From Qipengyuania vulgaris (GTDB lineage: Bacteria; Pseudomonadota; Alphaproteobacteria; Sphingomonadales; Sphingomonadaceae), in NCBI RefSeq assembly GCF_009827325.1, contig NZ_WTYC01000001.1:496001-560000 (forward strand): 64,000 nucleotides of DNA. Reading direction: 5' to 3'. Below are positions 24,366 to 38,768 of the stretch, piece by piece (positions within the stretch are counted from its first letter, which is position 1; each line of letters opens with the position of its first letter). A program made the translations under genes and the position numbers. The notes under the pieces are model-generated. The model was not told where the DNA came from. It saw nothing but the letters and a program-made list of their open reading frames with translations, and did not search any database.

Positions 24366-25112
24366 ATGGCTGAAAAGAAGCTTTTCGAGATCAATCCCAA
24401 CCTCGATCGAGCCGCGCTCGCCGAACGCTTTGCGCAAAACGGGCGCGTCCAGGTTCGCGATGTCCTGACCGAAGAAACGGCGCGCGAGATCCAGATGATC
24501 CTCGCGCGCGCAACCAAGTGGGGCATGGCGGTTCAGGCCGGCGACGGACCGGGAATCAAACCGCAAAGCTTCCGCCAGGAAGAAGTGCAGGCACCGGGTG
24601 GTGCCGAACGGGTCAACGCTGCGGCGATGGCAGCACATCAGGCATCTGCAAGGGGCGACTATGCCTTTCGGTTTGCGCAATATCCGATACTGACTGCGAT
24701 CCAGGAAGGCTGGGATCCGGGCGGTCCGCACGAGTTGATCCTCGAATATATCAATGCACCCGAATTCCTTGATCTGGCCCGCGAGATCACCGCAACGCCT
24801 ACACTGACCAAGGCCGATGGGCAGGCCTCGCTATTCGCACCCAACCACTATCTGGGACGTCACATCGACAGCCACGTCGCCGAAGGATGGCGCTTTGCCT
24901 ACACCCTCAACTTTGCGCCGGACAACTGGCATCCGGATTGGGGAGGATACCTGCTGTTCCTTGATGAGGAGGGCGATATCGTCGAAGGCTTCCGCCCGCG
25001 ATTCAACGCGCTCAATCTCTTCGCCGTGCCGACCAGCCACATGGTTTCCTATGTCCCTCCATTCGCACCGATGGGCCGTACAGCGATAGTCGGCTGGCTA
25101 CGCGACAAGTGA
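24366..25112 (+). CDS. 2-oxoglutarate/Fe(II)-dependent oxygenase (prolyl-hydroxylase-like)
   Basis: A 248-aa double-stranded beta-helix dioxygenase. The iron ligands are H166 and D168 (LGRHIDSHVAEGWRFAYTLNF) and H225 (VPTSHMVSYV), and the 2-oxoglutarate-binding arginine is about R238 (MGRTAIVGWLRD). The WHPDWGGYLLFLDEEGDIV segment resembles the Ofd1/Tpa1 and bacterial prolyl-4-hydroxylase group, which hydroxylate protein side chains. The start is the ATG at 24366. The stop overlaps the start of the TPR gene (GTGATG), so the three-gene set with the methyltransferase is tightly coupled. Confidence 0.9.
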   Translation: MAEKKLFEINPNLDRAALAERFAQNGRVQVRDVLTEETAREIQMILARATKWGMAVQAGDGPGIKPQSFRQEEVQAPGGAERVNAAAMAAHQASARGDYAFRFAQYPILTAIQEGWDPGGPHELILEYINAPEFLDLAREITATPTLTKADGQASLFAPNHYLGRHIDSHVAEGWRFAYTLNFAPDNWHPDWGGYLLFLDEEGDIVEGFRPRFNALNLFAVPTSHMVSYVPPFAPMGRTAIVGWLRDK

Positions 25113-26803
25113 TGACGACTGCGCAAGACTGGTTTGCTCGCGCAATATCGGCAGAGCAGTCGGGAAATCTACAGGAGGGCTTGCGGCTTCTCGAACGGGG
25201 ATTGGCCGAACATCCCGAGCATGCTCAGCTGCACAATTCCTTGGGATCTATGGCGATGCGCAGCGGCAATCCCCAAGCTGCAGACGCCGCCTTTTCCCGC
25301 GCACTCGCGCTCGAGCCACGTAACCTCGAATTTGTCATCAACCGAGCGATTGCTCTCGGGAAACGGGGGCTCCATCAAGAGGGGCTGGCTCTGCTTACAG
25401 AGCATGAGGAAAGCGGATCTCGCGAGGCGCGCTATTGGTCGGTCCGGGCAGCAACCGCGCGATCTGCTGGTCGGCCCGCGGAAGCGGCGGCGGCTTATGA
25501 TCGCTGTCTTGCCATTGAACCCAGCCATGCAAAGGGTTTGCACGGTAGAGCCCGCACCGCACTTGATCGGGGCGAAGAAAATGCAGTTGCCCGCTTCGAT
25601 GCGGCGTTGGCGGTCAACAGTTCGGAGGCCGATCTATGGCTGGGCAAAGCTCAGGCGCTGGATGTGGCCGGACAGCACACAGCCGCGCGCGATATTGCGG
25701 AACAACTCGTTACACAGGCGCCGCAGTGGCTGGAAGGACTGAAATTCCTTTCTCAGCTGCGCTTGGCCGCAGGAGAAAAGGACTTCGCCGCGCATTATCG
25801 CGAGGCGGCAAGGCGCGTTCCCACGGACCCAGGTATTCCTTCCGCCCATGCGGCAGTGCTGGCGGGGCTGGACTATAACGAGGAAGCCGCCGAAGTTTCA
25901 GCCGAAGCACGCAAGAGATTCAGCTCACTCCCATACTTTGCTCTCCTCGAAGCCATCCATGCCGGCGCTGCCGGCCAGCCTAAAAGGGCTGAAAAGATCT
26001 TTGCCGATCTCGACCTCGACACCAGCGAACGTGCCATCCACGAAGCGCGTCACAGGATCCGGATCGGCGAGTTGGCCCGGGCGGAAGCGCTGCTCGATAC
26101 CGCGATCGGCGATGAATCCGTGTCGCATTCCGCCTACGCCCTGCTAGGCTTGGTCTGGCGGCTGAATGACGATCCCCGCGCGAATTGGCTACACGGTCAG
26201 GCAGGGCTGGTCCGGCTAATACCACTGCGCAACAGCGAGAACGTCCTGCCACCTGCCATCGAAACCTTGCACAAGCTTCACGAAAATTCGCCTCTCCCTC
26301 TCGGCCAGTCGCTGCGCGGAGGCACGCAAACGCGCCATATTCTGTTTCATCGGCATGAACCCGAGTTCGCCCGGTTGCAGGAAGCGATTGTCGGGACGCT
26401 GGAAGATTATCGAGCGGGTTTACCGCCTTATGACGAAACGCATCCACTCTTGCGCCACCGCAGCGCGCCATGGTCTCTGGCAGGATCCTGGTCGGTCAGG
26501 ATGCATGGCGGAGGCGATTTCCACACATCGCATATCCACCCCCAGGGCATGCTGAGCTCCGCGCTTTACCTTATCGTTCCAGACCAGGCGAAATCCGCAA
26601 ACCAGCAAGGGTGGCTTGAGATCGGGCGTCCTCCGCCCGACCTGGGACTGGACCTCGGACCGCTGACAACCATCGAACCGCAGGAAGGATGCCTAGCCCT
26701 GTTCCCAAGTACACTTTATCACGGGACCACCAGTTTCGGGAGGGGCTTGCGAATGACGGTAGCTTTCGACGTTGTAGCCGACGGTGTAGCTCGCCATGGA
26801 TAG
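25112..26803 (+). CDS. TPR protein with C-terminal putative 2OG-Fe(II) oxygenase domain
   Basis: A 563-aa two-part protein. Residues 1 to about 330 form TPR-like helical repeats (for example ERGLAEHPEHAQLHNSLGSMAM, DAAFSRALALEPRNLEFVINRAIAL). The C-terminal 200 residues match the putative 2OG-oxygenase family (PF13759-like): metal-ligand region FHTSHIHPQGMLSSALYL (H474/H476), distal LFPSTLYHGTTSF (H537) and GLRMTVAFDV (R547). The TPR part probably binds a protein substrate. It starts at the ATG at 25112 (a GTG three bases upstream is also possible), overlaps the oxygenase stop by one base, and overlaps the next gene by eight. Confidence 0.87.
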   Translation: MTTAQDWFARAISAEQSGNLQEGLRLLERGLAEHPEHAQLHNSLGSMAMRSGNPQAADAAFSRALALEPRNLEFVINRAIALGKRGLHQEGLALLTEHEESGSREARYWSVRAATARSAGRPAEAAAAYDRCLAIEPSHAKGLHGRARTALDRGEENAVARFDAALAVNSSEADLWLGKAQALDVAGQHTAARDIAEQLVTQAPQWLEGLKFLSQLRLAAGEKDFAAHYREAARRVPTDPGIPSAHAAVLAGLDYNEEAAEVSAEARKRFSSLPYFALLEAIHAGAAGQPKRAEKIFADLDLDTSERAIHEARHRIRIGELARAEALLDTAIGDESVSHSAYALLGLVWRLNDDPRANWLHGQAGLVRLIPLRNSENVLPPAIETLHKLHENSPLPLGQSLRGGTQTRHILFHRHEPEFARLQEAIVGTLEDYRAGLPPYDETHPLLRHRSAPWSLAGSWSVRMHGGGDFHTSHIHPQGMLSSALYLIVPDQAKSANQQGWLEIGRPPPDLGLDLGPLTTIEPQEGCLALFPSTLYHGTTSFGRGLRMTVAFDVVADGVARHG

Positions 26804-27695
26804 GGTGGAGAAAGAAAAGGCCTGGAAGGCCTTTTGGGAACGTCAGCAATCCTCAACGGCTGGATCCGTGGTCTCGTCCGGGCCGGATCCGATCACCCGG
26901 GCCCAATTCGATGCCTGGGCGGACTTTTCCGCACATCTTAAACAAGGCGCGCGGGTTCTAGATCTCGGAACGGGTGGCGGGAAGCTTGCCAAGATCCTGT
27001 TGCAGGCGCGGCCGGATTTATCGATCGTGGGGATAGACCTTTCCAGCCCCCTGCCCGCTGCGCCTGACGGGATAGAACTCATTGGCGGCATATCGATGGA
27101 AAACCTTCCCTTCCCCGACAGCCATTTCGATGCGGCAGTGAGTCAGTTTGGCTTTGAGTATGGCGATACGGATCTTATCTCCGATGAGATTCTCCGTGTC
27201 GTGAAAACCGGTAGTTCTATCGGGCTGATGGTCCATCTCGGCGGAGGGCCCATCCTTGCTCATAATCTCAAGCGAAAAGAGCAAATTCTTTGGGTAAAAG
27301 TCAAAAAGGGTCTCTTCGATTACGTGAAGGAGATGCTCCACGACGAGGACTCCGATCGACAAGCGGCGATAGGTTTAGCGCAGAACATGGCGGTTGATGG
27401 AGCGGCCCGCTTCGGCAAGGGTTCGGTAGCGTGGGAGCTACCCGAGGCCGTTCGGCGTACACTGATTATGGCACAAGGCGGAGCGCACGAAAACTTGGTC
27501 GCAACGCTGGATCTTATCTCGGATCAAGCAGAGGCTGAACTTGGACGGATAGCGTCGCTTGCAGACGCCTGCGCGGCTGCCGACAATCGAGAACACCTTC
27601 TGGTGGGATTCCAAAGGCAGGGTCGGTTACCGATCGAAACGGTCTCCGTGCGCCTACCCGGTGAACCTGCCTTCGCCGAACTGATTATCATGTAA
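26796..27695 (+). CDS. SAM-dependent methyltransferase, class I
   Basis: A 299-aa class I methyltransferase. Motif I reads VLDLGTGGGKLAKIL (about 54-68), the acidic end of strand 2 is GIDLSSPLP, and motif IV/V is ISMENLPFPDSHFDAAVSQFGFEYGD, as in the Methyltransf_11/25 group. The C-terminal 170 residues are not recognisable and may set substrate choice. It overlaps the TPR-oxygenase gene by eight bases and is the last gene of that operon, followed by a convergent TonB receptor gene and its terminator. The substrate is unknown; modification of the same target as the oxygenases is a reasonable guess. Confidence 0.85.
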   Translation: MDRVEKEKAWKAFWERQQSSTAGSVVSSGPDPITRAQFDAWADFSAHLKQGARVLDLGTGGGKLAKILLQARPDLSIVGIDLSSPLPAAPDGIELIGGISMENLPFPDSHFDAAVSQFGFEYGDTDLISDEILRVVKTGSSIGLMVHLGGGPILAHNLKRKEQILWVKVKKGLFDYVKEMLHDEDSDRQAAIGLAQNMAVDGAARFGKGSVAWELPEAVRRTLIMAQGGAHENLVATLDLISDQAEAELGRIASLADACAAADNREHLLVGFQRQGRLPIETVSVRLPGEPAFAELIIM

Positions 27696-27823: not shown

Positions 27824-30800
27824 TCAGAACTTGAAGTTGATCGAGGCGAAGAAGTCGCGACCCAGCACGTCGAAGGTGCTCGGGTAAGTGTTGGCCTGCT
27901 CCTGGTTATCCCCAAGCAGCGTACCATTGTTGTCGCTCGACACGATGATACCGTTGAACGTCGGGGTCTGCGGCAGAGTATCGAACAGATTGTTCACACC
28001 GATGGTGAACGTGGTCGATTCGCTGGCCATGAACGAGAACGTCAGGTCGACCAGATCGTATGCCGGGATACGCTCTACACCGTTGAAGTCGTTGTAGTTC
28101 ACCGTATCGTCGTCGTCTTCGACGCCCGAAAGATGACGCCAACGAACCGAGGTCGTGAGCGGACCGTCGATGAACGATGCACGAGCCGTCCACTTGAACG
28201 AAGCGGTCGGATCGCCGCACTCGACGCCAAAGCGGCCGTCGCATACGATCGTACGTTCGAGATCAGCAACCGGACGGAAGCTGTTGCTTTCGGTCCAAGT
28301 TCCCAAGAACGACAGGTTGAGATCCTGCTCACCCGTGCCGGTCAGCAGCGAGAACGGGAGAACCGTGCTGTAGGTCGCCTGAAGGTCGACACCAGAGACA
28401 GAATATTCTGCAACGTTCACACCTGCCACGAGCGGCGGGTTATCGACAGTAATCGTACCGTCTCCGTTACGGGTACCCACGAACGGCTCACAGACCGGGC
28501 TGTTGAGGTCCTGAACTTCACCGAAGCAGAGGTTCAGAAGACCGGCCAAGCTACCACCTGCGATCGAGATGAAGTCTTCGACCTTGATGTCGAAGTAATC
28601 GGCCGTAAGCGTGAAGCCCGGGAAGAAGCTCGGCTGAAGGACAACACCTGCCGTCCAGCTGGTCGAGGTTTCTTCCTGGAGGTCCGGGTTACCACCGAAC
28701 AGGGCAGGGATCTGCGCGTTCGGCTGTACGACGTCACCGGTACCCAAGTTACCCGCAGGAACACCGTTCTGTACGCAAAGGTCACCGGCGCCGGGATTAG
28801 CGGCGAGGAAGTCCGCGCTACCGCACGGATCGGTTGCACCGGGGAAGCCGATTGCCTGTCCACCGAAGAGTTCGCCGACGTTAGGCGCACGAACTGCACG
28901 CTGATATTGACCACGCAGCGTGATATCCGGGATCGGCGAGAACTGCACGCCACCGGCGTAAGTCCAGGTTCCGCCAACAGCCTCAAGAGAATAGTCCGAA
29001 TAACGCGCAGCGCCCGTAAGCTCGAGACGGGCACTGCCGAACTCGATCGGAATGTTCAATTCGCCGAAGACTTCCTTCACATCGTAAGCGCCTTCAGTCG
29101 GCGAGCCGGCATTGAAGCCGATCACGTCACCCGAAGCGAGTGCGGTGTCCGGAAGGAACTGCGAAGCGACCCTGCGGTACTCGCCACCTAGAGCGAAACC
29201 GACCGGCTCTGCGGTACCGATGGCGAAATCGCCAAACGTACCCGAGACGGTGCCTACAACGTTCTCGAGAGTCGAGATGTCGCCATTCTGTGCCTGGATC
29301 GAGATCTGATCGACCTGAGCCGGTGTGAGCGTGTTCAGACCGAAGATGTTGATCGCCGGAGCCGAACCGTCAAGCGCAGCCTGGAAAGCCGAACGCGAGA
29401 TGTTGCCGGCCTGCACGTTGGCATTCCGGGTACGTGCATACATGTAGTACGCATCGTAGCTCAGGTAATCGTTGATCGGACCACGCATACCACCAAGGAC
29501 GCGGAATGCGTTACGCTCGTCGAGCGAGTTACGCGAACCGGTTTCGATGACACGGCGGTTGATGCCGGTGCTGACAACACCCAGTTCTGCACCCGGAAGA
29601 GCACCGAAGCAGGGAGTGCCGTCTTCAGGCACCATGCCGCCCGGACCGCAATAGCCGAGGCTGTCGTTGAATGCCTGACGCTGGGCAGCAGCGGCTGCCT
29701 CACGCTGGTCGAGAATGTTCAACTCATCGATCGCAGCTTGATCAAGGAACGGCGAAACAGCGTCGATGTTGACGTTATAGGTGCCGGTAACCGGGGTAGC
29801 AGCAAGTTCCTGCGCCACACGGTTGTTCACAAAAGCAACTTCCGTGTACATCGTGTGCCCGCCGCCGATATCGTAATCGGCATAACCACCGATCAGATAA
29901 CGTTCCTGCGGGAGCTGGAGATAGTTGGCCGGAGCATAGTTGTAGGTGTAGCCGTTGCCGTCACCGAGCGTTCCCGGCGTGAAGAATACGCCGTTATCGA
30001 CCAATAGGCCCTGAGCCAGCGGAGCGGTTACAGCTGCTTCACCGGCATCGGATGTATCGCCGTCACCGTTGAGATCGAGCGCGGGACGGACCGTGGTGGT
30101 TGCCGAAGCGTTGATGCGGCCTTCAGGAACAGTGCCCGAACCGAACTGCTGCAACGGCGCACCGAAGGATTCACCACCAAGGGCGAAGTTCGAGAATCCG
30201 CGGTCCGACTGGAAGATCGAGCTGCGGTTGAAGTATTCCGCAAATACGGTTGCGTTACCACGGCCATCGTCGAAGCTAGTGCCGATCGCACCATGCACTT
30301 CGTAACGGGCGCCATCGCCACGTTCAGTGATCGAGTACTGACCGCCGAGCTCGACACCTTCGATGTCGCGCAAACGGAAGTTAACGACGCCAGCAAGCGC
30401 ATCCGAACCGTAAACGGCCGAAGCACCACCGGTAACAACATCGACACTGTCGAGCAAGAAGGACGGGATGGTGTTGAGGTCGACGATCTGGGCAGTATCG
30501 TAGAACATCCAGCGACGGTCGTTCACGAGGACCAGTGTACGGGCGGCACCGAGACCACGAAGGTTCAGGGTCGCAGCACCGTTGCCCGGGTTATTCGAGA
30601 ACGAAGTGGTTCCCGGAATGACCTGCGGCAGGGTGTTGATCACGTTTTCGACGTTGACCGTACCCGACAGTTCGAATTCTTCGTCCTGCACAACAGCGAC
30701 AGGAGCAGCCGTTTCGACGTTGCGACGCGCAATGCGCGAACCCGTAACGATGATCGGCGCGATTTCAGCATCGGCAGCGCCCGGCTCAAGTGCAGGCTCG

Positions 30801-30901
30801 TTAACCTGTTCGTCAACCTGCGCATAGGCTGGCGAAACAACCATGGCACCGGCCATGATCGTGCCCGTCAGCAACGCGGCTTTGTTAAACTTGTAAGACA
30901 T
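27824..30901 (-). CDS. TonB-dependent outer-membrane receptor (1)
   Basis: A 1,025-aa gated outer-membrane porin that imports a large or scarce ligand using TonB energy. The start at 30901 follows AGAGGGG and opens a signal peptide (MSYKFNKAALLTGTIMAGAMVVSPAYA). The plug domain follows: IIVTGSRIARRNVETAAPV, NTLPQVIPG, TLNLRGLGAARTLVLVNDRRW, GGASAVYGSDALAGVVNFRL. The beta-barrel ends with an aromatic C terminus (DFFASINFKF). An extracellular segment holds DLNGDGDTSDAGE, like a calcium-binding loop. The ligand is unknown; this receptor group often lies with peptidases or modification enzymes. A 497-aa open frame on the plus strand is its shadow. Confidence 0.94.
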   Translation of the reverse strand: MSYKFNKAALLTGTIMAGAMVVSPAYAQVDEQVNEPALEPGAADAEIAPIIVTGSRIARRNVETAAPVAVVQDEEFELSGTVNVENVINTLPQVIPGTTSFSNNPGNGAATLNLRGLGAARTLVLVNDRRWMFYDTAQIVDLNTIPSFLLDSVDVVTGGASAVYGSDALAGVVNFRLRDIEGVELGGQYSITERGDGARYEVHGAIGTSFDDGRGNATVFAEYFNRSSIFQSDRGFSNFALGGESFGAPLQQFGSGTVPEGRINASATTTVRPALDLNGDGDTSDAGEAAVTAPLAQGLLVDNGVFFTPGTLGDGNGYTYNYAPANYLQLPQERYLIGGYADYDIGGGHTMYTEVAFVNNRVAQELAATPVTGTYNVNIDAVSPFLDQAAIDELNILDQREAAAAAQRQAFNDSLGYCGPGGMVPEDGTPCFGALPGAELGVVSTGINRRVIETGSRNSLDERNAFRVLGGMRGPINDYLSYDAYYMYARTRNANVQAGNISRSAFQAALDGSAPAINIFGLNTLTPAQVDQISIQAQNGDISTLENVVGTVSGTFGDFAIGTAEPVGFALGGEYRRVASQFLPDTALASGDVIGFNAGSPTEGAYDVKEVFGELNIPIEFGSARLELTGAARYSDYSLEAVGGTWTYAGGVQFSPIPDITLRGQYQRAVRAPNVGELFGGQAIGFPGATDPCGSADFLAANPGAGDLCVQNGVPAGNLGTGDVVQPNAQIPALFGGNPDLQEETSTSWTAGVVLQPSFFPGFTLTADYFDIKVEDFISIAGGSLAGLLNLCFGEVQDLNSPVCEPFVGTRNGDGTITVDNPPLVAGVNVAEYSVSGVDLQATYSTVLPFSLLTGTGEQDLNLSFLGTWTESNSFRPVADLERTIVCDGRFGVECGDPTASFKWTARASFIDGPLTTSVRWRHLSGVEDDDDTVNYNDFNGVERIPAYDLVDLTFSFMASESTTFTIGVNNLFDTLPQTPTFNGIIVSSDNNGTLLGDNQEQANTYPSTFDVLGRDFFASINFKF

Positions 30902-31124
30902 TTCTATCCCCTCTGAGGAGGGCACCATTTCGGTGCCCCATAAGAAAGTTGATCCAGAAACTAGTCTGAATATGCGGGGCGTACTTCAACGGCGCGTTCC
31001 ACTGCAATCTCAGATGCGAGGAAGCGGTATGGAAATCCGCGAGTGTGACAATGGAGTCACAGTTGACTTTGGTGACCGAATCCCGGCGAGTAGGAGGGCA
31101 TTTGCCGATCGAGAGGATTATCCG
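30902..31124. promoter_or_regulatory. Divergent promoter region between TonB receptor 1 and the exported protein
   Basis: A 223-base gap with the receptor reading left and the small exported protein reading right. It holds ribosome sites for both genes (CTCCTC/AGAGGGG for the receptor, GAGAGG for the exported protein) and so presumably both promoters. Open frames crossing it on either strand lack coding character. I see no obvious iron-box palindrome. Confidence 0.5.
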
Positions 31125-31661
31125 GTGACCAATTTCATGAGCATATTCCGCGCAACAGGCATATCCACTTTGGCAGTGGCTGCGTGTGTTGCAGCTCCTG
31201 CGAACGCTCAAGATGCGGAAGATCGCGGGAATCAGCTCCAAGCTTTGCGCGATTGCCGCACAATCGAGCAAAACGAGGCGCGTCTAGCGTGTTTCGATGC
31301 GGCCGTGGATAGTGTGATTGCACGTCAGGACAGCGGCGAGTTGCAGGTGCTGGACAAAGAAGATGTTGCCGAGACCCGACGGGGCCTATTCGGCTTCAGC
31401 CTACCCAAAATCGGCATCTTTGCCTCTGACGACGAAAAAGAAAACACGATTCTGCAGTCGCGGATAACCGGGTTGCGCCGCCTTCGCAGCGATCACTGGG
31501 AAATCGAGATTTCGGAAGGTAGTGTCTGGAGAGCCACAAACACTCCGCGCCAGTTCAGGCCCGAAGTCGGAGACGAGATCGAGTTGGAAAAAGCTGCCAT
31601 GGCCTCGTATTGGCTGCGAGTGAACGGGGCGCTGGGCGTTAAGGCTAGCCGTATTCGATGA
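31125..31661 (+). CDS. Exported protein of unknown function with RLACFD motif
   Basis: I place the start at the GTG at 31125, which has GAGAGG eight bases upstream; the ATG at 31137 is the alternative. This gives 178 aa with a signal peptide (FRATGISTLAVAACVAAPANA) followed by LQALRDCRTIEQNEARLACFDAAVD. That cysteine-bracketed 'CR.I....RLACFD' pattern is found in many uncharacterised proteobacterial periplasmic proteins. The second half looks like a small beta domain (RRLRSDHWEIEISEGSVWRATN). No known function. It lies between a divergent TonB receptor and a co-directional sulfotransferase-like gene. Confidence 0.72.
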   Translation: MTNFMSIFRATGISTLAVAACVAAPANAQDAEDRGNQLQALRDCRTIEQNEARLACFDAAVDSVIARQDSGELQVLDKEDVAETRRGLFGFSLPKIGIFASDDEKENTILQSRITGLRRLRSDHWEIEISEGSVWRATNTPRQFRPEVGDEIELEKAAMASYWLRVNGALGVKASRIR

Positions 31662-31727: not shown

Positions 31728-32702
31728 ATGATTCCAGATGTCGAGTCCAATCCTGAATGGATACCGCACGCGCTCAATTCGGAGACACGAACGGTCGAGT
31801 TCCTCAGGGTTCCCGAGGAAAGGTATTCCGCAGCCGGGTTTCTTTTTGAGTACGCACCGACCGACCCCGCCGACCGAATCTCGATATCGTTCGATCAGGT
31901 GAGCGAAATGGAGGTCGATGCTTTGCCCCTCCATTTCATTTTCCACACGGCGTTCTGTCGTTCGACGCTGCTGGCCCGGGCGCTGAACATTCCCGGCATT
32001 TCGATGGGCATGAGCGAGCCCGGCATCATTGCGAGCCTTGCATCCGGCGGCCCCGGGGTAGAGCCGCTCATTAAGCCATTGCTGCGGTTGCTGGGCCGAA
32101 AGAAGGCTGGAATCGACGCGATCTTCGTCAAATCAACAAATCACGCCAATCGCCTAGTTCCAAAGTTGCTCGGCGCTCAGCCTGACGCTCGCGCGGTGCT
32201 GATGACCAATTCGGTCGCGCCATTCTTGCAAAGCGTGCGCAAGCGCGGCTTGATGGGGCACCGCTGGGGGCGCCGATTATATCTCGAACTGCAGAACTAT
32301 ACCGGTGTCGACCTTGGCATGTCGCCCGAAGAGCAGTTTTCGATGACCGACCTGCAGGCTGCCGGCCTTGCCTGGCTTCTCAGCCAGTACTACTTCACCC
32401 GCCTCGCAACGGGCGATTTCAAGGATAGAGTGCGCACGCTCGACGGCGATTTCTTCAACGAGAATCGCGGCGAAACCATTCGGGCAGTCCTCGCATTTGG
32501 CGGCGTCGATCTTGGCGAACACACTGCCGAGGTCCTTGGGGCAAACCCGGCGTTTACGAACCATTCCAAGCTTGGCGGCCCGATGGTCGAAACCACTGCA
32601 GACAAGCCGACATCAGAAGAAATCGAGCAGGTTGAGCACTGGCTGGGGCTCATTGCCGGGCAGATGGATGTTGACATGCCCTTACGCCAGACCTTGCTTT
32701 AG
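31728..32702 (+). CDS. Sulfotransferase-like P-loop protein of unknown function
   Basis: A 324-aa soluble protein. Near residue 70 it has HFIFHTAFCRSTLLARAL, which resembles the 5'-phosphosulfate loop of PAPS sulfotransferases, and IFVKSTNHANRLVPKLL then RAVLMTNSVAPFLQSVRKRG fits the 3'-phosphate-binding region. The C-terminal half (MTDLQAAGLAWLLSQYYFTRLA, VRTLDGDFFNENRGETIRAVL) also parallels sulfotransferase folds. The similarity is at motif level, so catalysis is not proven. It sits 66 bases after the exported-protein gene and ahead of a shared terminator. A poor ribosome site suggests low expression. Confidence 0.65.
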   Translation: MIPDVESNPEWIPHALNSETRTVEFLRVPEERYSAAGFLFEYAPTDPADRISISFDQVSEMEVDALPLHFIFHTAFCRSTLLARALNIPGISMGMSEPGIIASLASGGPGVEPLIKPLLRLLGRKKAGIDAIFVKSTNHANRLVPKLLGAQPDARAVLMTNSVAPFLQSVRKRGLMGHRWGRRLYLELQNYTGVDLGMSPEEQFSMTDLQAAGLAWLLSQYYFTRLATGDFKDRVRTLDGDFFNENRGETIRAVLAFGGVDLGEHTAEVLGANPAFTNHSKLGGPMVETTADKPTSEEIEQVEHWLGLIAGQMDVDMPLRQTLL

Positions 32703-32818: not shown

Positions 32819-34822
32819 TCAAAGGCCGCCCGGTCCGCAATCGTTCGCTAGGAAGTCCAGCATCTTCGTATAGAACTGCGTCTGATGCTCGTACATCAGC
32901 GTGTTGTAGAAGTGATCGGCACCTTTCAGCGTAAGGTACTGGGCATCAGTCTTGCCGGCCTCTTCCATCGCATCGCGATAGTCGGTCATGTTGAAATAGA
33001 GCACCCGTGCGTCGACGTCACCATGAACCATCAACAAAGGCACGTTGACCTTCGAAACTTCATCGATCGGATTGATGCCAATCATGCCGCGACGCTGCGC
33101 CCAATCATCGATAGCTTTCGGGCTATAGGGATTCCGGCGTAGCTTGTAGACCTTCTCGGGATCCGCAACGGCGGCGCCAGCGATGACGCACTGGTACACA
33201 TTCGGGTCGCGCGAAGCGGCCACGAGCGCGGCATAGCCCCCATAGGACCAACCGAACATCGCCACACGGTCGGGATCCACGAGACCCTGGTCGATCAGAT
33301 ATTTCGCGCCGTCGTCCTTGTCGTCCTGCATGGCGAGCCCGTGCTGCCCATAGGCGGAATCGAACAATTCCTGACCCCAGCCAACTGACATGCGGTATTG
33401 CGGCTGGAGCACCATATAGCCGGCATTTGCCAGCAACTGGCCCCATTCGTCGTAACCGATGACCTCGTTCACATGAGGGCCGCCATGCGGAAGTACGACG
33501 AGCGGGAATGGTCCCTCACCCTTGGGCTTCGTGACGTAGCCCGCAATCATCTTGCCATCGCGCGCCTGATAGCGAATGAATTCCACGTCGGAGAGTTGTT
33601 CTGGCTGGATCAGCGGGTTGCGGCTGCCGAGTTTCGACATCCGGCCATCCTTGATCAGCCAGTACGACCCCGGATCGCGCGGCCCGGAATTGTAGACCAC
33701 CATCGTATTGCCATCGCGCGAACGGCTGGTGATCGAGACTGCGTGAGACTGGGGAATCTGCGCCTCGAGCGCATCGTATAAAGCCTTCTCCTCGGCATCG
33801 AACCACACGCGTTCGCGCTTGGCCCATGGATAACGAGCTGCCACAAGCGTGTCATTACCGGGAATCGAGTGGGTTTGTGTCCACATGATATCGGCCTGGT
33901 CGGTGGCGGCAAGCTTCTCACCGAACTGGCCGGTATTGAAATCGAATTCCCACAGCGCGGCTTTGTCCTCGCCACGGTTGTCGATCACATAGCCGATATT
34001 GGGATTTTCGGGATCAAACCCCTTGAGGCCCATGAAACCGCTAAGCACGCGATAGAGATTTTCGTGCTCACCTTGGTCATAGCGTTGAAATTCTTTCCAC
34101 GAGCTGTCGCCGGGCGAACGGTAGTAGGTAATCTGCTCCTTCGATCCCTGATCGTAGCCTTCGGTCCAGCGCGGATTGCCGTCATTGTCGAACACCGCGT
34201 CGGGGTATTTCTCACTCCCCTTGAGCACGAGCGAGCGAGCGCCCGTCTTGAGATTGAAACGGTAATAAGAGCGCGGACGGAAGGCGGCGAAGGGATCCAC
34301 GCCCGTTGCGTCTGCGACGGCATTGCCCGAAGAAACCAGGATGTGGTCAGGTTCATTGGGAAGCAAGTTAGCGAGTCCGAAATTTCCCGGCAACTCTGCG
34401 AATTTGTTCGTATCGAGATTGTAGGAAAATGCCTTGTAGTCATAAGTCCCCTCCTCGGGACCATTCACCCTGCTGCGGTTCTGCTCCCAGGCAGTGCCGA
34501 AGATGTAGTTATCGCTCACCCACTGCACCTGGATGATTTCCATCGGGTCGGCGTTTAGGCGGCGGAACGGTTTCGACATGTCGTCGATCTTGTAGATCTC
34601 GAGGAGATACTCGCCTTCCTTGCTTTCGAGCTTTTGAACTAGCACGTGCTTGCCGTCAGGCGATACTTCGACTGCATTCACAACGTCGCGCAGTGCCCAC
34701 ACGTCAAGTGGGACGGTCGGTTGGCCGGAGATGGCGGTTTGCGCCAGTCCAGGCACGGCCGGCAGAGCGAGGCAGAGCGCACCTGCCGCTGCTGCCATGA
34801 GGGTTGATCTAAACTTTTTCAT
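32819..34822 (-). CDS. S9-family peptidase (prolyl oligopeptidase / acylaminoacyl-peptidase type)
   Basis: An exported serine peptidase of 667 aa from the ATG at 34822; an upstream GTG would add five residues. The signal peptide is MKKFRSTLMAAAAGALCLALPAVPGLAQ. A beta-propeller occupies about residues 45-400, then the alpha/beta hydrolase domain. Nucleophile S526 lies in MFGWSYGGYAALVAASRD, the aspartate in HGDVDARVLY and the histidine in LKGADHFYNT. The propeller restricts such enzymes to short peptides. It lies 100 bases downstream of TonB receptor 2 on the same strand with a terminator between them; the pair recalls receptor-plus-isopeptidase arrangements. Confidence 0.93.
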   Translation of the reverse strand: MKKFRSTLMAAAAGALCLALPAVPGLAQTAISGQPTVPLDVWALRDVVNAVEVSPDGKHVLVQKLESKEGEYLLEIYKIDDMSKPFRRLNADPMEIIQVQWVSDNYIFGTAWEQNRSRVNGPEEGTYDYKAFSYNLDTNKFAELPGNFGLANLLPNEPDHILVSSGNAVADATGVDPFAAFRPRSYYRFNLKTGARSLVLKGSEKYPDAVFDNDGNPRWTEGYDQGSKEQITYYRSPGDSSWKEFQRYDQGEHENLYRVLSGFMGLKGFDPENPNIGYVIDNRGEDKAALWEFDFNTGQFGEKLAATDQADIMWTQTHSIPGNDTLVAARYPWAKRERVWFDAEEKALYDALEAQIPQSHAVSITSRSRDGNTMVVYNSGPRDPGSYWLIKDGRMSKLGSRNPLIQPEQLSDVEFIRYQARDGKMIAGYVTKPKGEGPFPLVVLPHGGPHVNEVIGYDEWGQLLANAGYMVLQPQYRMSVGWGQELFDSAYGQHGLAMQDDKDDGAKYLIDQGLVDPDRVAMFGWSYGGYAALVAASRDPNVYQCVIAGAAVADPEKVYKLRRNPYSPKAIDDWAQRRGMIGINPIDEVSKVNVPLLMVHGDVDARVLYFNMTDYRDAMEEAGKTDAQYLTLKGADHFYNTLMYEHQTQFYTKMLDFLANDCGPGGL

Positions 34823-34860
34823 AAAGGCGACTCTCACAAGATCCTACATTTGTCGAAAGT

Positions 34861-34898
34861 AAAAAGGGCGGCTCCAGCACTGAAGCTGGAGCCGCCCT
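34861..34898 (-). terminator. Rho-independent terminator of TonB receptor 2
   Basis: A perfect 14-bp stem, AGGGCGGCTCCAGC (34865-34878) with 34885-34898, loop of six; on the minus strand it is followed directly by TTTTT. It lies between the receptor stop (34925) and the S9 peptidase start, so the peptidase is probably transcribed from its own promoter or by read-through. Confidence 0.93.
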
Positions 34899-34924
34899 CA
34901 TTTACACGTTCAAGATGAACGACA

Positions 34925-37900
34925 TCAGAAGTCGAAGCGAACCGATGCGAAGAACTCGCGTCCGTCGTAATCGTATCCGTTACCAATCGCGGTGTTGGCG
35001 ATCGACAGAACTTCACTCGGATCCACCAATGGCGGAGCAGTGTTGAAGATGTTGTCGACGCCCGCAATGACAGTGAACCGATCGGCACGATAGCGGATCG
35101 ATGCCGTGTGCAGGAACTGCTCGTCGGCAAAATCGACGTCACGACAGAATACGCCGTCTCCTGCAACTACACCGTTAGCAGAACCAGCACCCGTGCAAGT
35201 ATCGCTAACAGCGTTCGGAGCGGGCGTGTCGTCGGTAATCGGCTGACCATCCGGACGGTTGTTGAACGCGTCGCTGAATTCATCTTGGATATCTTCGTCC
35301 AATTCAACCGGCCCCGTATAGCGGGTCTGCCAAGTGAAACGGAACTTATCGATATCTGCTGTAAAGGTCAGTCGACCAGTCCACTTCGGCAGGCCGAACT
35401 CACCAGCATCCTCGTCGAACGTCGGCTCGCCATCATCTCCAATGAACAAAGAGCTACGTTCGATAAGATGGTTTGCGCTCAGATTGAGGCCCAGGTCGAT
35501 CAGTTGTCCGAAAGCGCCTACTTCCTTGCCGACGAAACCATTAATGTCGACACCACGAACACTTTCTTGGTTCAAGTTAATGAACCCGGCTTCGACATCC
35601 GAGATCAACATCCGGCCATTCGGATCATATGTCAGACGATCACAGAACGGGCTGCGCGAATCTGCTTCCCGCAATGCGAAGCAGTCATTGACAATGAATT
35701 GCGACGCGGGCTCGATAATCGAGTCCTTCAGTTTGATATCGAAGTAGCTGGCGCCAAGGCTCATGTCGAAGCCGTCACCAAACGTCTCCTCGAAAGCGAA
35801 GCCTGCAGTAATCGAACGGGAAGTTTCCGGTTCGATATCCAAACTGCCTCCGGAAGCAATCTCGGCACTCGCGAACTGGGTCGTGTCCGTCGGAGTCGTG
35901 CCGACTGTAAAGGGATCGCGACCTTCTCTGATACAGCTATCGATTACGCTCTGTTCACGAGTGTCTTCGGCCGCATCATAACCGCCTTCGCCGTCAAGGA
36001 TGGGCGAGTAAGCGGCGGCTGGGACCGCACAAGGATCGAACAGCCCATTATTGAAACCACTCTGCCCGGCGAGGAAGTTCTCGCGGAGGTTGGGGGCTCG
36101 GAATGATGTCCCGTAGCTGAACTTCAGCAGCAGCGGATCAATCGGACGCCATCCTGCCTTGACGGCATAGGTAAAGTTCGTTCCGTAGAATTCTTCGTCC
36201 GTCACACGGCCCGAGAGATTGACGTTGAGTTCCCTGACCCACGGCTTTCCAGCCTGAAGAGGTATATCGATCTCGCCGAATGCTTCCTTGATTTCCTTGC
36301 TGCCTACTGCGCCCTTATCGGCGAAGAAGCCATAGAAGAGACCGTTAGAAGCGACTGCATCCGGCTGCGAGTCGATCTCATCCTTCCGATATTCAAGGCC
36401 CAGCACCGCACCGACAGGTCCGGCCGGCAGCGTGAAAAGGTCACCTGTGACAAAGGCGGACAACAGGGTTTGCTCATACACTGTGTCGAAAGAGCGTACC
36501 CCGAAAAGATAGTCGGTCTCGGCTTGGCTGGAGAACGTACCGATCGCATTGCCGAGCAAACTTCCAGCGAACAGGTTAACCGGCACGCAGCCTTCCGTAA
36601 GATCCGGAAGTGCAGCGCCGGGATTTGCAAGATTAGCCACATCGCATGCGCCGCCTGGTAGCAGGTTTATCGGCTGGTTATTGTAGTCATCCGCGATACC
36701 GTCACCATCGTTGTCGAATATCCCGTCGCCATTATAGTCGGCGGTTGGATCCTGACCGAGAGCGAGGAGCAGCTTGTCTTCGCGAATACCACGGCGAACC
36801 GAGCTACCTTCAGCCCGCGAGTAAACCAGCGACGTGTCGAAGGTCCAGCTTGAGCCGATGAACGGCAGGTCTCCACGGACACCGAGAACACCGCGGTACT
36901 GTTCCTGAACCACGTCGGTATTGTCACGATCGCCCTGCACCGAAAAAACGGGCTGAGTATTAAGGGAGGTACCAGTCGCAAGCGCGTTGGGCGTTCCCGG
37001 AGCGAAACCCTCGTACTCATTGTTCGCAGCCCGGCAATCAACACCAAATTCAATGTTGCAAGGGTTGAACGGATTGCTTCCCGAAACGACCGGGAACACC
37101 TGCGCTGCGCCTGTATTATCGGCGAAAATTTCAGCCCTTGTGTAATTTGCTTCGAAATAAGGCGTAATGTTGCCCGCACCCGCAAGGGTGTATTCACCGT
37201 AAGCCATCACATTGTAGAGCTTCTGCTCGCTCAGGAATACCTCGTCCGGATCAGCACCATTTCGGTTGAAACCGTTAGGAAAGTCGACATCACGGAAGCC
37301 GTCTCCGTCGGAATCGACATTGCGTCCGAAGGCATCCCGGAAAATGCTGTAATTCGGAACACCAGAGTTGGCGATTTCGGGCTGATACCAGAGATTTCCG
37401 AAATAGGTGCCGGGCGCCAAAATGCGTCCGACTTGACTTGTGACGACACAATCCTGCTCAATAACGGAAATGTCTCCGCCACTCTGAGACTGAACAACGG
37501 CGTTGCTACGCAGGTCGGTCGTAAGAATTTGGCCATCTTCGGTGAATTCGCGATGTGTTGCGCAGCCTTGGAAAAAGTCGCGGTCACGCAGGCGGATTTC
37601 GTCGCGATAGTCGTATTCCGCACCAATCCCGATAAAACCACGATCGAAATTCAAGCCGTAAGCACCGCTGATGGTATAGTCTTCGCCGGAGCCCTGCGGA
37701 TTGATTTCGCCGCGTGCATAAAGCTCAAGGCCATCAAAGTCCTTACGGAGGATTACGTTACCGACACCAGCGACAGCATCCGACCCGTAGATCGAGGATG
37801 CGCCGTCCAGCAGCAAGTCGTAGCGATCAATCAAAGAGCCCGGAAGGAGGTTGATCGAAGGGTTGGTCGGCGCGCCTTCTACGCCGGCGGGCGCAAGCCG

Positions 37901-38398
37901 ACGACCATTGACGAGAAGCAGCGTACGATCGGCACCCAGACCACGCAGGTTTAGCGTCTGCGAACCCGGGCCGTTATCAAGCACGAAACCCTGGAAGGTG
38001 GCATCAATCTGCTGGCCAGAAGCGCTTTCCGAACGCTGGAGAATCTGTGAAGGGTCGAACAGACCAGTCTCGTTCGAAGCTTCAGTAGTGATGACTTGGA
38101 GCGGTGAAATGCTGCTGTATGTATCTCGCTTAATGCGCGAGCCGGTCACAACGATGGCGCCTTCAGTCTGCTGACCGGTAGCACCAGTATCCGTTACGTC
38201 GACGACCTCGTCGGTGTTACCGTCATTGCTCGATACGCCATCGGGAGCGGTGTCTTGCAGAACACATTCACCATCGACGTCATCGTAGCCTTCGGCGCAG
38301 TCAGCGTCCTGAGCGAACGCTTGGCCACCCGTAACGAGAGCCAGAGCGGACACCGAGACGGCGAGACCCTTTATAGTAGTTGTATGAATTTTTCGCAT
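34925..38398 (-). CDS. TonB-dependent outer-membrane receptor (2), with calcium-loop-like inserts
   Basis: A 1,157-aa receptor, larger than average. The start at 38398 gives a signal peptide (MRKIHTTTIKGLAVSVSALALVTGGQAFA). A 60-residue acidic segment with two cysteines (DADCAEGYDDVDGECV) precedes the plug, which has AIVVTGSRIKRDTYSSISPL, LNLRGLGADRTLLLVNGRR and DGASSIYGSDAVAGVGNVIL. The barrel ends EFFASVRFDF. Two loops hold DSDGDGFRDVDF (37280-37315) and DYNGDGIFDNDGDGIADDYN (36677-36739), which match calcium-binding DxDxDG repeats. The ligand is unknown; a peptide is suggested by the adjacent S9 peptidase. Confidence 0.94.
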   Translation of the reverse strand: MRKIHTTTIKGLAVSVSALALVTGGQAFAQDADCAEGYDDVDGECVLQDTAPDGVSSNDGNTDEVVDVTDTGATGQQTEGAIVVTGSRIKRDTYSSISPLQVITTEASNETGLFDPSQILQRSESASGQQIDATFQGFVLDNGPGSQTLNLRGLGADRTLLLVNGRRLAPAGVEGAPTNPSINLLPGSLIDRYDLLLDGASSIYGSDAVAGVGNVILRKDFDGLELYARGEINPQGSGEDYTISGAYGLNFDRGFIGIGAEYDYRDEIRLRDRDFFQGCATHREFTEDGQILTTDLRSNAVVQSQSGGDISVIEQDCVVTSQVGRILAPGTYFGNLWYQPEIANSGVPNYSIFRDAFGRNVDSDGDGFRDVDFPNGFNRNGADPDEVFLSEQKLYNVMAYGEYTLAGAGNITPYFEANYTRAEIFADNTGAAQVFPVVSGSNPFNPCNIEFGVDCRAANNEYEGFAPGTPNALATGTSLNTQPVFSVQGDRDNTDVVQEQYRGVLGVRGDLPFIGSSWTFDTSLVYSRAEGSSVRRGIREDKLLLALGQDPTADYNGDGIFDNDGDGIADDYNNQPINLLPGGACDVANLANPGAALPDLTEGCVPVNLFAGSLLGNAIGTFSSQAETDYLFGVRSFDTVYEQTLLSAFVTGDLFTLPAGPVGAVLGLEYRKDEIDSQPDAVASNGLFYGFFADKGAVGSKEIKEAFGEIDIPLQAGKPWVRELNVNLSGRVTDEEFYGTNFTYAVKAGWRPIDPLLLKFSYGTSFRAPNLRENFLAGQSGFNNGLFDPCAVPAAAYSPILDGEGGYDAAEDTREQSVIDSCIREGRDPFTVGTTPTDTTQFASAEIASGGSLDIEPETSRSITAGFAFEETFGDGFDMSLGASYFDIKLKDSIIEPASQFIVNDCFALREADSRSPFCDRLTYDPNGRMLISDVEAGFINLNQESVRGVDINGFVGKEVGAFGQLIDLGLNLSANHLIERSSLFIGDDGEPTFDEDAGEFGLPKWTGRLTFTADIDKFRFTWQTRYTGPVELDEDIQDEFSDAFNNRPDGQPITDDTPAPNAVSDTCTGAGSANGVVAGDGVFCRDVDFADEQFLHTASIRYRADRFTVIAGVDNIFNTAPPLVDPSEVLSIANTAIGNGYDYDGREFFASVRFDF

Positions 38399-38768
38399 TT
38401 TGAACTCCAGTTGCGACAACCGGAACTGCGCTCCCACCCAACGGACAGCAAATTCTGCGCCCCCCTAGTGGCGCAAGCTTGCATGAAATGTCCGGGCGAA
38501 TAAGCCCCCAGTCCCAACAGAGGGCTTAGTGCGTTAACCCTTGCCACCTGTCAAAGCACCTTAGCGGTTTTGGAGGCTGGTGTTGCGCAATTCCCACAAC
38601 ATAGGGCCTGCTGCGACGGTTAAATCAACTCTTCGAGAAAGATTCGCCTACTGAGTGCGACCGTGGCCTACTAAAGTTTCAAGGTAACATTTGGACACTT
38701 CCCGAAACTCGTATGCAGTCTGCGAATCACCGCTGTTGTTGCACGCTCATGACAAATGGTGCGCCCTG
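38399..38768. other. Intergenic region upstream of TonB receptor 2 and downstream of clpB
   Basis: A 370-base stretch with no credible coding frame. It should hold the receptor promoter (reading left) and the 3' end of the clpB transcript. A weak hairpin, TAAGCCC (38501-38507) with GGGCTTA (38522-38528), and a short palindrome GCAAGCTTGC near 38474 are all I can see. It is more AT-rich than the neighbouring genes, as promoters usually are. Confidence 0.5.

Follow-up and report, generated by a model that had tools for sequence, protein, structure and literature searches.

Here, we identify three overlapping genes of Qipengyuania vulgaris (Sphingomonadaceae) as conserved neighbors of a gene for a TonB-dependent receptor (TBDR). 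The genes lie in a stretch of 64,000 nucleotides of contig NZ_WTYC01000001.1, referred to here as the window, and encode P4H, a stand-alone 2-oxoglutarate (2OG)-Fe(II) oxygenase; TPRox, in which a tetratricopeptide repeat (TPR) superhelix precedes an oxygenase domain of the PF13759 family; and MT, a class I S-adenosylmethionine (SAM) methyltransferase. A preliminary description of the window had recognized the trio but overlooked its main partner, the receptor TBDR1, whose gene is convergent with the trio. We tentatively suggest, at somewhat less than even confidence, that the trio acts in the cytoplasm as a polypeptide-tailoring cassette for the neighboring TBDR1, with the receptor as its putative substrate. 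Four features of the locus are directly observed, i.e., gene coupling, a conserved receptor partnership, domain make-up and catalytic residues.

The three genes are tightly coupled. The P4H frame runs from an ATG at 24366 to a TGA at 25110-25112, the TPRox frame from an ATG at 25112 (TGATG) to a TAG at 26801-26803, and the MT frame from an ATG at 26796 to 27695, and the reading-frame check thus confirmed the overlaps of 1 and 8 bases that had been described. An alternative in-frame GTG for TPRox at 25109 gives a 4-base overlap with P4H, the commonest spacing among relatives. The overlaps are kept across relatives, in line with the coupling proposed originally: the P4H/TPRox junction is overlapping in 60 of 71 relative loci, with gaps of 5 to 32 bp in the remaining 11, and between TPRox and MT the median gap is −4 bp (55 loci); these spacings depend on start codons chosen by a script, and two values (−646 and −199) evidently reflect wrong starts. 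Given the junctions in relatives, the overlaps between P4H, TPRox and MT are more than chance.

The trio also co-occurs beyond close relatives. A search of 298 family genomes matched TPRox in 247 (E ≤ 1e-3, a count that includes paralogues and matches to the repeats alone), TBDR1 in 94 (E ≤ 1e-100), P4H in 90 (E ≤ 1e-10) and MT in 53, representing 27 of 96 genera (E ≤ 1e-10). We compared 140 neighborhoods, comprising 60 hand-picked from the TPRox matches in family genomes and the best 80 of 587 matches, the latter mostly from Erythrobacter, Qipengyuania, Altererythrobacter, Novosphingobium, Sphingomonas and their kin. After removal of 47 loci in which the best TPRox match was below 40% identity or 250 bits, or which repeated another locus, 93 loci were kept, 83 with a full-length TPRox, mostly from Sphingomonadales, and ten with a late-starting TPRox match. 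P4H is present in 78 of the 83 full-length loci and MT in 59, and TBDR1, P4H and MT are found together in 55. MT was not found in the other 24, at least one of which (L066) is truncated at the edge of its contig. Weak MT homologues (31 to 33%) lie 1 to 3 kb from TPRox relatives in three further loci (L206, L207 and L208).

TBDR1 is the near-constant partner. A TBDR1 homologue (≥43% identity) lies within 4 kb of TPRox in 78 of the 83 full-length loci, downstream and convergent in 75, convergent in L150 and co-directional in two (L152 and L157). The 3′-to-3′ gap between trio and receptor, with MT in between where present, is 52 to 448 bp with a median of 148 bp (77 convergent pairs); these gaps derive from extrapolated match ends, and six values of ∼3 kb from another computation disagreed and were set aside. 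As background, a genome of 3.23 Mb has 26 TBDR genes (28 matches, two of which are second pieces), from which we estimate that a random gene lies within 4 kb of some TBDR ∼9% of the time. Among the five full-length loci lacking TBDR1, the available stretch ends at most 1.3 kb downstream in L038, L049 and L066, and does not in L171 and L176. Conceivably, this conservation reflects ancient synteny, with a TBDR included in the block by chance and without any functional link. Consistent with this idea, a thiolase flank is common to 45 of the 78 TPRox-TBDR1 loci, the small protein hyp5 encoded beyond TBDR1 co-varies with TPRox and MT, and the sample consists of the best TPRox matches, which favors one lineage. 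However, in 33 of the 78 loci TPRox and TBDR1 stay together although the fetched sequence shows no thiolase, and 25 of these 33 also lack clpB (flank counts cover the fetched range only, which is cut by a contig end in some loci). Moreover, weaker TPRox relatives adjoin a TBDR in 18 of 22 loci (L069-L090), some of them co-directional (L080, L084 and L085), with no TBDR seen at L077, L078, L082 and L083. Outside the family, a TBDR lies within ∼1 kb of a PF13759 oxygenase gene in three of 19 loci (L094, L097 and L098) and at ∼5 kb in L095. We regard mere synteny as very unlikely. The 19 outside-family loci were hand-picked from a class-level list for long PF13759 open frames, some in short stretches, and in 15 of them no TBDR was detected by tblastn with the two receptors of the window, a search that divergent TBDRs may escape; they do not show the receptor link to be general to PF13759 proteins. 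In two loci from other families of the class (L110 and L111), PF13759 oxygenase domains are clustered, several per contig, with no TBDR detected.

Table 1. Genes of the trio, its receptor and the adjoining features, in window positions
Feature	Description	Position	Strand	Basis
P4H	Stand-alone 2OG-Fe(II) oxygenase	24366..25112	+	Pfam; Tpa1/OGFOD1-like double-stranded beta-helix model
TPRox	TPR superhelix (~residues 1-360) and C-terminal PF13759 oxygenase domain (459-553)	25112..26803	+	Pfam; model
MT	Class I SAM methyltransferase	26796..27695	+	Pfam; best single-sequence PDB match LahSB
TBDR1	TonB-dependent receptor, convergent with the trio	27824..30928	-	Signal peptide apparent by eye
hyp5	Small protein, divergent from TBDR1	31137..31661	+	Signal peptide by eye; weak VasI match below cut-off
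ST6	Sulfotransferase-like (presumed)	31728..32702	+	Motif; no Pfam match
S9 peptidase and TBDR2	Peptidase paired with a second TBDR	32819-38437		Family search

Several lines of evidence make a polypeptide substrate, as had been proposed for the trio, reasonable from the folds, i.e., P4H resembles Tpa1, OGFOD1 and PPHD, the TPR part of TPRox is OGT-like, and the best single-sequence PDB match of MT is the peptide methyltransferase LahSB. P4H matches PF13661 (8.4e-13), PF13640 (4.7e-9) and, below threshold, PF10637, with no NCBIfam match at E ≤ 1. Its residues H166-x-D168, H225 and R238 are invariant in 27 sequences and correspond to the HxD...H metal triad and the 2OG-binding Arg. In VIA-align comparisons, the structure model (pLDDT, a per-residue confidence score, 94.6) is closest to Tpa1 (4nhk; Z 21.4, root-mean-square deviation [rmsd] 2.1, 192 aligned residues) and then OGFOD1 (Z 19.8), followed by PolD (19.1), PPHD (19.0), a Burkholderia oxygenase (18.8), PasI (18.6), HalB (17.9) and BesD (17.8); Foldseek gives the Burkholderia oxygenase as the top match, with Tpa1 in second place. 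Against PDB sequences, the P4H profile has only two matches at E ≤ 0.01, OGFOD1 (4.9e-7) and PPHD (2e-4). P4H thus shares the double-stranded beta-helix fold and the HxD...H...R site of these enzymes. Proline as the target is doubtful. In the profile alignment, an invariant Trp (W175) lies opposite R162 of OGFOD1, a placement that is alignment-dependent, and we read R162 from the alignment as equivalent to Arg322 of PHD2, the conserved Arg that contacts the backbone of the substrate proline at the entrance to the active site (PMC4396695). Because an invariant Trp takes the place of this Arg, the residue targeted by P4H may not be proline. P4H also differs from prolyl hydroxylases of the OGFOD1, Tpa1 and PPHD kind in having R-T-A in place of RxS and in being linked to a TBDR.

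The kinship of P4H also fits a different scenario, in which the enzymes modify another protein, e.g., a translation factor or a protein of the ribosome or the cell surface, and the link to TBDR1 is regulatory or nutritional, the receptor supplying iron for two iron enzymes. OGFOD1, Tpa1 and the bacterial PPHD, the closest folds with a name, are protein prolyl hydroxylases with uS12 and EF-Tu as substrates (PMC4396695); a model in which the receptor feeds iron to the oxygenase has been put forward for a related pair (model B in PMC12004943). Moreover, co-variation of P4H with TBDR1 was not seen (see below), and P4H orthologues occur away from TPRox. Of seven such loci, five (L199, L200, L201, L202 and L204) lack a TBDR and adjoin a gene that we take, from reading its sequence, to be parE (topoisomerase IV subunit B), and a TBDR is present in the stretches of the other two (L203 and L205). 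P4H, therefore, also exists outside the present locus. Iron supply, however, leaves unexplained MT and the TPR-sulfotransferases and ST6 at such loci, as well as the joint absence of the enzymes with one particular TBDR. We consider this scenario unlikely.

TPRox matches many TPR models and PF13759 (3.2e-17), bearing out that the TPR protein carries a second oxygenase domain. H474-x-H476, H537 and R547 are invariant, and their position suggests a 2OG site with a His for the usual Asp. In the structure model (pLDDT 95.5), the TPR superhelix is about as similar to OGT as to designed TPR proteins; the structural matches cover mainly residues 1 to 416, i.e., the TPR part rather than the PF13759 domain. 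The Foldseek matches include human AspH (6q9f, E 1.1e-10), in which a TPR region likewise precedes an oxygenase domain. However, a TM-score of 0.27 to 0.34 and an rmsd of 14.6 indicate a common layout, not superposition, and the catalytic domain is PF13759 rather than the PF05118 (Asp_Arg_Hydrox) domain of AspH. All 38 members of TPRox set A1 have PF13759, and PF05118 is found in a separate neighboring protein (L080).

The class I methyltransferase assignment of MT is supported by a match to Methyltransf_11 (6e-9). Its best single-sequence match in the PDB (phmmer) is LahSB (6uak; E 6e-7, residues 48-171), an enzyme of similar length, while by profile YcgJ (1xxl) ranks first and LahSB second. 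LahSB is a C-terminal carboxyl methyltransferase of ribosomally synthesized and posttranslationally modified peptides (RiPPs) (PMC11285071). This likeness could point to a RiPP-like pathway, in which the trio modifies a short precursor that is exported or reimported via TBDR1. By contrast with LahSB, no RiPP precursor was found near MT: among 21 short open reading frames (ORFs) in seven thiolase-to-ClpB gaps of the window, matches were restricted to the three to four nearest relatives (L113, L114, L115 and L131) in a search that covered the compared loci except L001-L030 and L091-L112 and was not aimed at distant or gene-overlapping precursors. The gaps between trio and TBDR1, as small as 52 bp, also argue against a precursor there, and we consider this pathway very unlikely, the least probable of the explanations discussed here.

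Because TBDR1 is a near-constant polypeptide partner, TPR fusions suit an extended peptide and no conserved precursor gene was found, we rank tailoring of the receptor first. By eye, TBDR1 has a signal peptide and none is apparent in P4H, TPRox or MT, suggesting that enzymes and receptor meet in the cytoplasm before export. We suggest that the TPR superhelix of TPRox would hold an extended stretch of the unfolded TBDR1 precursor, which TPRox would hydroxylate; a further hydroxylation would be carried out by P4H and a methylation by MT. After export, the marked precursor would insert into the outer membrane, and the modifications may there tune the stability of TBDR1 or its ligand recognition. 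In this model, we infer the activity of the enzymes, a polypeptide as substrate, its identity as TBDR1 and the order of the steps.

The enzymes might instead hydroxylate and methylate a peptide- or siderophore-like ligand that is taken up by TBDR1 and reaches the cytoplasm, leading to iron release or metabolism. PolD, PasI, HalB and BesD are small-molecule enzymes, and their folds are only 2 to 4 Z units below Tpa1 for P4H. In addition, genes for an S9 peptidase and TBDR2 lie close by, and ligand processing has been proposed for PiuC and, as model A, for CciO (PMC12004943). On the other hand, TPR fusions suit polypeptides, the pair of S9 peptidase and TBDR2 is conserved in only part of the loci, and no inner-membrane transporter was recognized by eye in the recurrent clusters of 60 loci, in which none was specifically searched for. 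Altogether, ligand processing appears rather unlikely, although we rank it second, after receptor tailoring. The S9 peptidase also has a weak match to a lasso-peptide isopeptidase, far below the cut-off.

Pairs of a TBDR and a 2OG oxygenase have been described before, i.e., CciT/CciO in Caulobacter, PiuA/PiuC in Pseudomonas and Fiu/YbiX in Escherichia coli, with the role of the oxygenase described as unsettled (PMC12004943), and changes in PiuC accompany raised minimum inhibitory concentrations of siderophore-conjugated antibiotics (PMC11878004). The claim that the trio is not described as a unit, therefore, holds in part: a unit of TBDR, TPR-oxygenase and methyltransferase was not found in the full-text literature searched, coverage of which does not extend to subscription journals and preprints, while TBDR/2OG-oxygenase pairs are already published. 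As in the CciT/CciO kind, a TBDR gene at the present locus is the conserved neighbor of a 2OG-Fe(II) oxygenase gene across genera. In contrast to that kind, the receptor gene is convergent and not in one operon with the oxygenase, a methyltransferase is added, and sulfotransferases and Asp/Asn-hydroxylases occur at sister loci. The oxygenases also belong to other families, P4H being a stand-alone PF13661/PF13640 protein and TPRox a TPR-PF13759 protein; judged by their family matches, neither is of the PKHD type. PiuC is typed as PKHD in a reference within PMC11878004. Thus, with a separate operon and other oxygenase families, the present locus is outside the CciT/CciO set, but a larger group of enzymes here raises the question that this set has posed.

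Correlated change between receptor and enzymes was analyzed in two ways. First, in eight of the ten loci with a late-starting TPRox (L078, L144, L149, L151, L153, L156, L158 and L185), TBDR1, P4H and MT are absent together; of the other two, L165 is a contig-edge case, and L074 is a partial alignment that keeps TBDR1. Seven of the eight, all but L078, are Erythrobacter loci that have the thiolase flank and a different, co-directional TBDR (31 to 36%), and in which the first TPRs of TPRox are apparently missing. Second, in a partial Mantel test with 31 loci, in which the divergence of three flanking genes was partialled out, divergence of TPRox and MT tracks that of TBDR1 (partial r 0.36 and 0.37, respectively; p 0.0005). 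This test lends weak support to a receptor tie that is stronger for TPRox and MT than for P4H.

Several observations weigh against TBDR1 as the substrate. L171 and L176 carry TPRox with no TBDR1 within the fetched stretch, and TBDR1-like receptors occur without TPRox in L193, L194, L196 and L197; the P4H loci beside parE likewise lack a TBDR. The joint absence of TBDR1, P4H and MT may have arisen only once, within one Erythrobacter group. In the Mantel test, no correlation with TBDR1 was seen for the divergence of P4H (partial r −0.08, p 0.88). For hyp5, the partial r is 0.13 with TBDR1 (p 0.07) but reaches 0.32 for TPRox and 0.37 for MT; because hyp5 correlates about as well with TPRox and MT, the correlations may reflect block inheritance. 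As a precedent in favor of receptor marking, deletion of cciO reduces the CciT protein with mRNA unchanged; however, CciO falls upon cciT deletion, other iron TBDRs fall in both deletions, and CciO is described as dispensable for iron transport (PMC12004943). Because of these further losses and its dispensability, CciO is not a clean precedent for receptor marking. Two candidate features of TBDR1 were also rejected as support. An insertion in the last loop (residues ∼986 to 1004) is present in 47 of 51 receptors with MT and in none of 22 without, and Gly566 (otherwise Phe) in 50 of 51 and none of 22, respectively; however, with three changes for MT, three for the insertion and two for Gly566 on the TBDR1 tree, there are three independent pairs, of which one agrees for the insertion and two for Gly566, which is too few. 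The N-terminal tail, the easiest target, was rejected as a conserved one because the N-terminus of mature TBDR1 is a variable acidic linker.

In the window, TBDR1 is followed by hyp5, a frequent neighbor in the compared loci, ST6, the S9 peptidase with the second TBDR, and clpB, and the trio is preceded by genes for a thiolase, a short-chain dehydrogenase/reductase (SDR) and an enoyl-CoA hydratase. We assigned the names of the upstream genes, clpB and ST6 from reading the sequences rather than by family search. ST6, which we take to be sulfotransferase-like from a motif, had no Pfam match over the cut-off (the protein of the window and eight members scanned) and no PDB profile match at E ≤ 1; it is a possible accessory part of the system. 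ST6 homologues (L225, L228-L230, L232-L236 and L242) lie beside TPR-Asp/Asn-hydroxylases elsewhere in the family, and several of these loci also have clpB.

Sister loci have further enzymes as neighbors, a replacement by other TPR-fused proteins that we count in favor of receptor tailoring, i.e., TPR-sulfotransferases (PF13469), TPR-Asp/Asn-hydroxylases (PF05118) and another 2OG oxygenase (PF13640). Within a 1.5-kb flank of the best 30 TPR-AspH loci (query included), a TBDR is found in 14, a TPRox match in seven and neither in 14, and an ST6 homologue occurs in ten of the 30; among 17 TPR-sulfotransferase loci (query included), the corresponding numbers are eight, 11 and one. In L094, from outside the family, a sulfotransferase-like gene, a TPR-AspH and a TPR-sulfotransferase surround the receptor. 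L192 (Sphingomonas caeni), L191 and L094 contain dense islands of TPR-sulfotransferases and TPR-Asp/Asn-hydroxylases with one to three TPR-PF13759-like genes around TBDRs.

It is possible, if on balance doubtful, that sphingomonads possess a modular system in which many TBDRs each have swappable TPR-guided cytoplasmic hydroxylases, sulfotransferases and a methyltransferase that mark the precursor before export. If so, such marking would alter receptor stability, ligand choice or phage recognition. The family adds a further test case for why 2OG oxygenases adjoin TBDRs, as in Fiu/YbiX, PiuA/PiuC and CciT/CciO, because it combines two oxygenases and a methyltransferase whose closest folds or sequences include enzymes that modify polypeptides, a near-constant receptor, and loci in which receptor and enzymes are jointly missing. 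If TBDR1 is the substrate, cytoplasmic hydroxylation or methylation of an outer-membrane receptor would add a new layer to envelope biology, and the idea might be extended to CciO and PiuC.

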